Shown: positions 24,827 through 27,499 of the stretch, piece after piece
Numbering within the stretch: position 1 is the stretch's first letter
Layout: every line of letters begins with the position of its first letter
IMG/VR virus record: IMGVR_UViG_3300021961_000459
Location: 1-28,621 of that record
Length of the DNA: 28,621 nt
Strand: one strand, 5' to 3'
DNA from: a virus
The notes under the pieces: model-generated
Seen by the model: the letters and a program-made list of their open reading frames with translations, nothing else
What the model was told of the DNA's origin: nothing
The model's database searches: none
Translations under genes and position numbers: made by a program

Positions 24827-24849
24827 AAAAAAAGGGAGACTAATCTCCC
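24827..24849 (-). terminator. Rho-independent terminator of the micro-operon
   Basis: On the minus strand GGGAGA-TTAG-TCTCCC, a 6-bp stem with tetraloop, is followed by seven T. The stop codon of the 51-aa gene (TAG, 24842-24840) lies inside the loop, so a terminating ribosome would cover the hairpin. Confidence 0.85.
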
Positions 24850-24995
24850 TCAAAATTAAAAAGTTTTTCAAACCACTCATCCAAATGAATGAGATAACAC
24901 GACCAATATTTACAACCCCTATATGTTAATTGATAACATGCGGGAGGTCTGTTATCCTTGTCCATATCATCATTATGATATGTGTAGTTTTCCAT
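24840..24995 (-). CDS. Small YRGxKY protein, 51 aa (DUF4278-like)
   Basis: This gene is too short for usual gene calling. It reads MENYTYHNDDMDKDNRPPAC, then YQLTYRGCKYWSC and an amphipathic C-terminus (YLIHLDEWFEKLFNFEGD). The LTYRGCKY core matches the cyanobacterial DUF4278 type, whose hallmark is a short YRGxxY strand. A second copy of the same core is in the 45-aa gene upstream. Its ATG overlaps the stop of the 28-aa gene (TAATG), and its stop lies in the terminator loop. Three cysteines cluster around the core. The role is unknown; the coupling and terminator support it as a real gene. Confidence 0.7.
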   Translation of the reverse strand: MENYTYHNDDMDKDNRPPACYQLTYRGCKYWSCYLIHLDEWFEKLFNFEGD

Positions 24996-25081
24996 TACTT
25001 ATTCAGTAATAGAACTTCTGCATAAATTAAAAAGATGAATGCTGTTGATGCTCCAGTAATTGCAGCAATTGTAGCAATCAT
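24995..25081 (-). CDS. Tiny single-span membrane protein, 28 aa
   Basis: The whole protein is one hydrophobic segment (MIATIAAITGASTAFIFLIY) followed by AEVLLLNK. That is the size and style of small photosystem or cytochrome b6f subunits and of phage membrane micropeptides, but I do not recognise it as any named subunit. The start overlaps the stop of the 45-aa gene (ATGA) and its stop overlaps the next start (TAATG), so it is translationally coupled on both sides. This makes it very unlikely to be chance. Confidence 0.65.
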   Translation of the reverse strand: MIATIAAITGASTAFIFLIYAEVLLLNK

Positions 25082-25215
25082 TTGTGCCCTTCCTTTACAT
25101 ACTTAACACCACGATAGGTTTCGTTGTATTGTTGGGGTTGTTGCATCATTTGCTGCTGATACTCCAGACGCTTCTGAGTATCATATTCGATGCCACGATA
25201 TACGACTTTAGACAT
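25078..25215 (-). CDS. Small YRGxKY protein, 45 aa (DUF4278-like)
   Basis: The first gene of the micro-operon encodes MSKVVYRGIEYDTQKRLEYQ, a Gln/Met-rich linker, and YNETYRGVKYVKEGHK at the end. Two YRGxxY motifs occur in one chain (YRGIEY and YRGVKY), the pattern of DUF4278 proteins of cyanobacteria and their phages. A textbook AAGGAG box sits 8 nt before the ATG, the strongest in this region, so high translation is expected. It follows a long structured leader. Function is unknown. Confidence 0.8.
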   Translation of the reverse strand: MSKVVYRGIEYDTQKRLEYQQQMMQQPQQYNETYRGVKYVKEGHK

Positions 25216-25343
25216 TAGGTTTTCTCCTTAAGTGTTTAGGTTAAAGAGCGTTCCTTCAGTCGGCGTTTGCGTTCGCTATTTGAGAATAGCGAATGAACGA
25301 TCCGTTCCGCGTCGGCTTACTTCCGTCCCATAGGGATGAACGT
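25216..25343 (-). promoter_or_regulatory. Structured 5' leader RNA of the micro-operon
   Basis: This roughly 128-nt leader is richer in GC than its surroundings and contains no gene. On the minus strand it holds a TCCC-TAT-GGGA hairpin (25336-25326), a GAACG-GAT-CGTTC hairpin (25307-25295) and a perfect 9-bp hairpin TTCGCTATT-CTCA-AATAGCGAA (25293-25272). Two direct repeats of GCCGAC...GGAACG (25316-25303 and 25264-25249) flank the last one. It ends at the AAGGAG box of the 45-aa gene. It may be a regulatory leader or a small RNA with its own function; no known riboswitch class is recognised. Confidence 0.6.
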
Positions 25344-25349
25344 GAGGTC

Positions 25350-25378
25350 ATTATAGACCTATTGGACTATATATGCAA
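25350..25378 (-). promoter_or_regulatory. Sigma70-type promoter with dyad around the -10
   Basis: On the minus strand TTGCAT and TATAAT are 17 nt apart. The -10 lies exactly between the arms of a perfect inverted repeat AGGTC-N6-GACCT (25345-25360), a possible operator. It drives the leader and the three small genes down to the terminator at 24827. The stretch 25379-25405 shows only an AT-rich inverted repeat after the glutaredoxin-like gene. Confidence 0.72.
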
Positions 25379-25405
25379 ATTCTTTTGTAAAATGTGATAC
25401 AAAAT

Positions 25406-26745: not shown

Positions 26746-27297
26746 TCACGAACGACCACCCCACTGAATGTCGGGATAAGATTCTTTTACAATATCAAGG
26801 GTTATTTTGTATTTAGTTTCGAGTTTCTTATCCTTTACAAGACACAGAAGTTCTGCCTCTTTTGGATGAAGACCTCTCAAAAGATTAATAAACATCATTT
26901 CTCTACGAATTGATGCAAGACTATCATTACCACCCTTTACAAAATGATAGAGATTTGCATATTCGCGGCGAAGAGAAGTTTTTCCTCTTCCATCCAAATC
27001 TTGGCCTGTAGCAGACTCTCCCCCTCTTGCTTCCTTCGCAAGGTTCTCCGAAAGAGTTCCAGAATAGACGGACTGATCTTCAGCATCGCCATAAGGAACG
27101 TCACCTTCAGGAATTAAGGAAATAACAGTTTCATCAAAGTTCCAAATAAAAATAGTTTTAAGAGCATCAGTTTCGTATTCTTTTAATACCTCTACTTTTT
27201 TTGCTCTACTTCTTTGCTTACTTACAAGTTCTAAAATTTCGTAAATAAATGGATTTGGAGGAAGTGCCTCATCAGTCTTCGTCGCTTTCTTCGTCAT
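26746..27297 (-). CDS. Conserved cyanophage protein (DUF6433-like), 183 aa
   Basis: Function unknown, but clearly a conserved T4-like phage protein. The core reads LPPNPFIYEILELVSKQRSR, then AKKVEVLKEYETDALKTIFI, WNFDETVISLIPEGDVPYGD and FINLLRGLHPKEAELLCLVK. The NPFxYExLxLxSKQ opening is, as I recall, that of DUF6433. The last part, LHPKEAELLCLVKDKKL, resembles a segment common in phage proteins linked to replication or clamp loading, but this is weak. The start was put at ATG 27297; 27309 is an alternative. It overlaps the membrane protein gene by 26 nt. Confidence 0.75.
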   Translation of the reverse strand: MTKKATKTDEALPPNPFIYEILELVSKQRSRAKKVEVLKEYETDALKTIFIWNFDETVISLIPEGDVPYGDAEDQSVYSGTLSENLAKEARGGESATGQDLDGRGKTSLRREYANLYHFVKGGNDSLASIRREMMFINLLRGLHPKEAELLCLVKDKKLETKYKITLDIVKESYPDIQWGGRS

Positions 27298-27499
27298 AGT
27301 AGTCGTCATAATTGTTTTCAAATCGTACTGCTAAAATTTCATCTGGCAAAATATTGCCGTTTTCATCAAACATCTCTGGGTGCGTATATGCAATATTAGT
27401 GGAATAGAAATGTTCTTTTGCTAACCATCCTACTACGCCTCCAACGAAAAAGAACATTATTGAAACGAGAGTGCCGATGGTGAGAGTTACTGCTAACAT
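27272..27499 (-). CDS. Single-span membrane protein with acidic tail, 75 aa
   Basis: Residues 4-26 form one transmembrane segment (VTLTIGTLVSIMFFFVGGVV), likely with the N-terminus outside and the C-terminal part in the cytoplasm. The tail is conserved-looking (AYTHPEMFDENGNILPDEIL) and ends in an extremely acidic run (DDYYDEESDED). A GGAG box lies upstream of the ATG. I recall similar single-span proteins in other cyanophages; the role is unknown. The gene overlaps the next one by 26 nt. Confidence 0.75.
   Translation of the reverse strand: MLAVTLTIGTLVSIMFFFVGGVVGWLAKEHFYSTNIAYTHPEMFDENGNILPDEILAVRFENNYDDYYDEESDED

Follow-up and report, generated by a model that had tools for sequence, protein, structure and literature searches.

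What does the 128-nt leader at 25343 to 25216, read on the minus strand at the head of a compact transcription unit, do in the virus that carries it? The window, by which we mean the whole stretch of DNA analyzed (28,621 nucleotides, IMG/VR record IMGVR_UViG_3300021961_000459), is a fragment of the genome of a T4-like cyanophage, a virus of marine cyanobacteria. It encodes members of the gp32, PhoH and Thy1 families and part of a photosynthetic reaction-centre protein (Photo_RC), and its nearest named record is Synechococcus phage S-SM2, with 76% identity over 42% of the 10.6 kb compared. A 75-aa protein elsewhere in the window (27272-27499, minus strand) contains DUF2973, another small family, at the Pfam cut-off (22.2 bits).

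A sequence-only reading of the leader had pointed to local GC richness, three hairpins, a perfect 9-bp stem and direct repeats, and all of these are present. The leader is 47.7% GC against 35.9% for the window, only 1.8% of whose 128-nt stretches are as GC-rich. The hairpins lie on the minus strand at 25336-25326, 25307-25295 and 25293-25272, the last being the 9-bp stem with its 4-nt loop (UUCGCUAUU-CUCA-AAUAGCGAA), and GCCGAC and GGAACG each occur twice, nearly in register. The absence of protein coding in the leader holds for this window. The fold is only mildly more stable than expected (z = -1.9; 6 of 200 shuffles reach the same stability or better). Among the roles suggested, control of micro-operon translation by a regulatory RNA was right in kind, but the identity of the RNA, a nested double aptamer of the glutamine-riboswitch type, was missed. 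Nothing supports processing into a small RNA, and host-RNA mimicry has no more in its favour than that cyanobacteria, too, use riboswitches of this kind.

Relatives of the element were collected from pattern scans of viral contigs (the matches listed), named phages and genome contigs. Of 456 rows parsed, 12 without a parsable inner J2/3 were dropped, a number equal to that of the plain tandems seen (12), and the other 444 gave 366 unique composites, as we call elements of this architecture; at least that many exist. P-HM1 is outside all counts. A less biased subset (n = 252) leaves out the loci found only by the two scans that fix P3, and the alignment was built from 80 of the 186 eligible sequences, with no type represented more than twice. 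By our reading, 20 genome-contig stretches comprise 6 composites (L443, L446, L454, L455, L460 and L461), which may be phage DNA in assemblies, 10 plain tandems and 4 unrelated matches. A host origin of the composite was considered and set aside, only these 6 of the 20 stretches carrying it and phage DNA in those assemblies being possible. Plain tandem glutamine-I-like aptamers were seen in genomes of the SAR86 and SAR92 clusters, outside the cyanobacteria (L444, L445, L448, L449, L451, L456 and others).

Scanned against Rfam at the gathering threshold, the window gives no match, and a tRNA and tmRNA search found none. A permissive scan places the glutamine-I riboswitch (glnA RNA, RF01739) twice in the window in the right orientation, at 33.6 and 23.1 bits, and a second RF01739 search gives 33.6 and 31.1 bits; both halves of the leader match, each just under the gathering cut-off of 35 bits. 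Relatives of the same architecture score 37.9, 35.6 and 35.1 bits, and in one (L128) cmscan itself picks the nested reading described below, as a single 92-nt match above the cut-off (37.9 bits). Named cyanophages with relatives are S-PM2, S-CREM1, Bellamy, ACG-2014f, P-SSM2, P-SSM4, P-RSM6, S-SSM7, S-SRM01, S-SZBM1, DSL-LC02 and DSL-LC03, where the element lies near nrdB, talC, td/thyX, phoH or other genes. RF01739 is found at E ≤ 0.01 in 11 of 12 named cyanophage records, and above the cut-off in 3. A manA RNA lies near the glutamine element in P-RSM6 (L125:1969-2154, 188 bits) and P-SSM4 (L130:1019-1204, 184 bits).

The leader carries every conserved element of two glutamine-riboswitch aptamers. 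The outer one holds the RF01739 elements P1 CGUUC/GAACG, J2/3 CGGAAGUA and J3/1 GAAG, and equivalents of the pocket bases C1:G59, G22 and C58 and of the linchpin, as given in passages of PMC6698751, are present in both sites. Judging from this conservation, each site probably binds one glutamine. The contiguous three-way junction with a P3 hairpin that typifies RF01739 is absent; the P3 strands are 44 nt apart, with the second aptamer between them. On comparative evidence from the relatives, the two aptamers form a nested pair: the opening CGUUC is partnered by the final GAACG, the middle GAACG-GAU-CGUUC is an inner hairpin, and the outer aptamer, of the glutamine-I type, bears at the end of its P3 another one that is circularly permuted. 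Of the direct repeats, the GAACG copies supply the 3' strands of both P1 helices, and the GCCGAC copies are the opposite strands of a single P3 common to both aptamers. The parts of the element are the following.

25248-25342, minus strand: nested double glutamine aptamer, whole (95 nt), from Rfam, covariation, linchpins and ensemble
25338-25342, minus strand: C1, outer P1 5' strand CGUUC, partner 25249-25253, invariant in 80 of 80 aligned sequences, pair probability 0.91 in the window
25326-25336, minus strand: outer P2 hairpin UCCC-UAU-GGGA, covarying in relatives
25318-25325, minus strand: outer J2/3 CGGAAGUA, with 25323, its third base, equivalent to G23 and pairing with C25248 (Watson-Crick in 80 of 80 aligned sequences)
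25310-25317, minus strand: X, 5' strand of the shared P3, AGCCGACG, covarying with 25258-25265
25303-25307, minus strand: G1, inner P1 3' strand GAACG, pairing with C2 (probability 0.75)
25300-25302, minus strand: 3-nt loop GAU, with G25302 the inner linchpin base
25295-25299, minus strand: C2, inner P1 5' strand CGUUC, from alignment and ensemble
25272-25293, minus strand: inner P2, 9-bp stem with 4-nt loop, where many relatives have an ORF-bearing insert instead
25266-25271, minus strand: inner J2/3 CGCAAA, third base C25269 pairing with G25302, from linchpin counts and alignment
25258-25265, minus strand: Y, 3' strand of the shared P3, CGCCGACU, from covariation
25254-25257, minus strand: J3/1 GAAG, E-loop strand of the outer aptamer, fitting the RF01739 consensus
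25249-25253, minus strand: G2, outer P1 3' strand GAACG, from alignment and ensemble
25224-25248, minus strand: predicted expression platform, CUCUUUAA (25248-25241) pairing with UUAAGGAG (25231-25224) in the segment MFE

The identical P1 strands would allow C1 to pair with G1, which can happen before the second module is made. The leader might then fold early into a form like the glutamine-II pseudoknot and exchange strands into the nested fold later, with the timing of transcription as part of the control. We consider this exchange unlikely. The 5' half of the P-RSM6 relative (L125) scores 33.1 bits with glutamine-II (Downstream-peptide, RF01704), at its cut-off of 33, whereas the first half of the window scores only 11.8 bits. 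Glutamine-II does resemble the window in the CGCA after P2, in the inner-site GGAACGG with a C-G linchpin and in the small DUF4278 ORF downstream. Its P1, however, is a pseudoknot with GGAACG in the P3 loop, while that of the window is unknotted, as covariation favours, and the RF01704 scores of the window are 15.5 and 11.8 bits.

The fold could also be conserved without glutamine sensing, as a structural RNA or protein-binding leader derived from a riboswitch. The window's score below the Rfam cut-off would fit, as would the two C.A mismatches in P3, which are kept in most sequences of the 9-nt form, the window's type. Against this stand the pocket bases described in PMC6698751, found in both sites, and the usual gene behind the leader, and we hold the loss of sensing to be improbable.

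A plain tandem, in which two glutamine aptamers fold independently through separate P1 helices (C1-G1 and C2-G2), was our first reading; it was abandoned on covariation, and we now give it very little credence. Rfam gives two separate matches in the window, the identity of the P1 strands makes either pairing possible, and plain tandems occur in the same sequence space in the SAR86 and SAR92 contigs. In those tandems, however, every unit contains a P3 hairpin and a GAAGGAACGC of its own, both of which are missing from unit 1 of the window, and the window does not combine an own P3 hairpin with an own linchpin in each unit. P1 is invariant in the alignment and therefore silent on topology. The linchpin is informative: in the ligand-bound glutamine-I crystal structure, G23 of J2/3 is paired to C60, which immediately follows P1, and the glutamine-II equivalent is C19-G41 (as far as described in passages of PMC11477058, PMC5393176 and PMC6698751). 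In plain single aptamers, the third base of J2/3 forms this linchpin with the base after P1 in 58 of 59 cases.

In the nested reading, the outer linchpin is Watson-Crick in all 366 listed composites (246 C-G, 120 G-C), and the inner one, between the inner J2/3 base and the base after the first GAACG, in 359. In the tandem reading, the first-half J2/3 base matches the base after the first GAACG in 245, and the inner J2/3 base matches the base after the last GAACG in 243, so that the linchpins fail in 121 and 123 of the 366; as the linchpin has two states only, few evolutionary events may underlie these counts. The subset of 252 gives 252 and 248 for the nested linchpins and 196 and 194 for the tandem ones, and of the 80 aligned sequences only 76.3% and 71.3% can pair the linchpins in the tandem reading. 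Because this ligand-dependent pair is Watson-Crick in the nested and often not in the tandem reading, we take the topology to be nested.

P3 covaries between the units, which in a tandem would be a pseudoknot. Counting against the nested fold, most sequences with the 9-nt P3 retain the two C.A mismatches. Its pair X8:Y-8 is U-A in 101, G-C in 28, A-U in 23 and something else in 3 sequences (n = 155), and the variable pair of the 6-nt form is G-C in 67 and A-U in 8 of 75; other families have the strands AGUCG/CGACU, AGUCA/UGACU, GGACGG/CCGCCC and AAACGAC/GUUGUUU. Covariation had been named beforehand by the sequence-only reading as the evidence to look for, and it is strong. With the nested structure, 95.0% of cells in the 80-sequence alignment are paired and 13 pairs are changed on both sides; the score is 0.252 against a shuffled mean of 0.079, and none of 500 shuffles was as good by any measure. 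In these aligned sequences, covariation shows the linchpins and P3 of the nested fold. One relative (L252) is without G1 and C2 and keeps C1 and G2, as nesting predicts.

The thermodynamic ensemble favours the nested fold in 80 of 80 sequences, with a mean probability of 0.925 for outer P1 and 0.021 for tandem P1 (means of the two tandem P1 helices, 0.02 and 0.01); in the window the values are 0.910 and 0.006. As fixed structures, the nested fold lies below the tandem in only 48 of 80 sequences, and in the window the tandem is lower (-22.6 against -20.9), while the unconstrained MFE of -26.0 is nested. Chance structure in a GC-rich stretch, for which the folding z-score of only -1.9 could be cited, is a negligible prospect in view of the covariation and conservation across hundreds of relatives.

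The P2 loops of the nested element can hold genes. In 142 of the 366 listed composites, an insert of at least 90 nt takes the place of the inner P2 hairpin, and 132 of these inserts are an ORF with its ATG a few bases after CGUUCA and its UGA or UAA stop exactly at J3/1, so that the P3 3' strand and J2/3 double as codons. The P2 strands flanking the inner gene form 5 of 5 pairs in 130 of the 142 (0 of 2000 permutations) and covary across genes (UCUAU/AUAGA, UCCUC/GAGGA, GAUUA/UAAUC, GUUUA/UAAAC). An ORF-sized insert interrupts outer P2 in 61 of the 366 listed composites. The flanking strands form 5 of 5 pairs in 48 of these (0 of 2000 permutations), though choosing the best among several CGTTCA sites biases this count towards pairing; 4 of the 366 had no upstream CGTTCA. 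The subset of 252 divides into 97 with no insert, 115 with an inner one, 13 with an outer one, 25 with both and 2 with an inner one and the outer side uncalled, and an embedded ORF of about 50-70 aa lies in the inner and/or outer P2 loop of 155 of the 252.

The embedded ORF has its start codon within or next to the 5' strand of P2. Of the ORFs compared, five inner ones match phrog_504 (one at E 0.015, the other four strongly) and two outer ones phrog_6471, both families being of unknown function; several embedded phage ORFs are annotated as genes. Between close inner ORFs, differences at codon positions 1, 2 and 3 number 1343, 607 and 2317, the third position varying most and the second least. 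S-SRM01 has C-G in place of A-U as its first P3 pair, a change that deprives the embedded ORF of its stop at this position; keeping P3 paired seems to take precedence over keeping the stop codon. The window belongs to the class without embedded ORFs, neither of its P2 loops holding a gene.

The inner P2 hairpin of the window (25272-25293) recurs almost letter for letter as P2 in many phages. In the form UUCGCUAUU-N3-5-AAUAGCGAA it directly follows CGTTCA at 104 of 105 places, the other (L148) being inside an outer P2, and it may have a role of its own, because P2 is otherwise free to vary. A mobile repeat was considered and rejected on these positions.

The leader stands in the following transcription unit.

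25350-25379, minus strand: sigma70-like promoter TTTGCA-18-TATAAT, from a consensus scan (10 of 12 matches), directly upstream of the leader
25345-25360, minus strand: inverted repeat AGGTC-TATAAT-GACCT around the -10 box, from the dyad count in relatives
25343-25216, minus strand: leader
25078-25215, minus strand: 45-aa DUF4278-like ORF with two YRG motifs (PF14105 at E 6.7e-4, under the Pfam cut-off; phrog_5049 at E 3e-10)
24995-25081, minus strand: 28-aa hydrophobic peptide MIATIAAITGASTAFIFLIYAEVLLLNK, with an ATGA overlap with the 45-aa ORF upstream
24840-24995, minus strand: 51-aa ORF with a YRG motif, in TAATG overlap with the 28-aa ORF (DUF4278 only at E 0.13)
24832-24851, minus strand: intrinsic-terminator-like hairpin behind the third ORF, closing the micro-operon (scan: 1 found, 0.3 expected)

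Judging from the promoter match, the transcript would start at about the first base of outer P1. Dyad arms of at least 5 surround 113 of 145 TATAAT boxes just upstream of the riboswitch, compared with 124 of 2079 other TATAAT in the same loci. The arms vary between phages with complementarity kept and TATAAT in the loop; the repeat may form a promoter hairpin in the DNA, or else a hairpin adjoining P1 in the RNA. The element is followed by a DUF4278-type gene, as indicated by the weak Pfam match, phrog_5049 and the YRG/YKG motifs of relatives. An ORF with such a motif is next downstream in 334 of 344 listed relatives, 22 of the 366 having no downstream ORF called. The 28-aa ORF overlaps both neighbours, and small ORFs occupy the same place in S-SRM01 and S-PM2.

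We are fairly confident that the leader is a two-site glutamine riboswitch of nested architecture, which would act as an ON switch in front of the three-ORF micro-operon. The outer aptamer would be a glutamine-I three-way junction whose P3 runs on into the permuted aptamer instead of ending in a loop, and the inner aptamer would consist of a P1 closed by the 3-nt loop, P2 and the same P3 helix, each site having its own P1 and its own long-range linchpin pair. Without glutamine, the strand behind the aptamer would fold back and hide the Shine-Dalgarno sequence of the DUF4278-like ORF. With glutamine, the linchpin would capture C25248, the first base of the Shine-Dalgarno hairpin, and the overlapping three-ORF micro-operon would be translated. 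Because the hairpin and the linchpin share C25248, glutamine most likely switches translation on, and by stabilising the linchpin and P1 it should favour translation. Two sites on one common helix would be expected to respond more steeply than a single site. ON switches before DUF4278 genes are described among cyanobacterial glutamine riboswitches in passages of PMC6316151 and PMC6698751. The Shine-Dalgarno hairpin is predicted in only 139 of 344 listed relatives, and covariation does not support it among these 344 (own 4.86, cross 4.50); the platform is therefore a prediction for the window's type only, and general sequestration across relatives was rejected on this covariation.

More tentatively, the nested sensor may frame genes as a reciprocal, self-reinforcing translational switch that reads the nitrogen state of the host during infection. 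When glutamine is high and the sensor folds, the start of the embedded gene would be masked and the DUF4278 gene behind the element released; translation of the embedded gene would pull the sensor apart.

The element shares with glutamine-I riboswitches its P1, J2/3, J3/1, linchpin and place before a DUF4278-type ORF; it differs in that P3 has no end loop and bears a second, permuted aptamer, and in that its halves score under the cut-off. Tandem glutamine riboswitches are already known (PMC2864571), with 157 doublets and 4 triplets counted (PMC9481103), and share with the window two sites before one gene. In the passages of these papers that bear on them, doublets are taken as self-contained units in a row, whereas the units of the window are interleaved and have P3 in common. 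Cyanophage glutamine riboswitches are known as well (PMC9964418, PMC9602691). The glnA riboswitch of S-CREM1 in PMC9964418 is the same element, listed in its Table 4 as one 99-nt RF01739 match of 44.0 bits, about the whole nested length; the paper's passages on it do not remark on its double nature or nesting.

Group I introns can carry ORFs in their peripheral loops. As in the relatives described here, coding sequence then lies inside a structured RNA, and translation and folding can interfere. A translated uORF inside the B12 aptamer of M. tuberculosis metE, described in a passage of PMC11260477, is likewise coding sequence within a structured RNA. Unlike both, the phage ORFs of the relatives fill P2 loops of a metabolite aptamer, with the P2 helix closing across them. 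The open-licence literature searched contained no description of the nested, permuted, P3-sharing architecture or of genes in its P2 loops.

P-SSM4, whose element is split twofold, has no RF01739 match at E 0.01 in its whole genome; because split forms can thus escape standard annotation, phage glutamine riboswitches are probably undercounted. The element would be a metabolite sensor in which circular permutation interleaves the two sites instead of setting one behind the other, and whose loops can accommodate whole genes. It lends itself to testing cooperativity through a common helix, the contest between translation and folding of the RNA, and the sensing of host nitrogen status by viruses.
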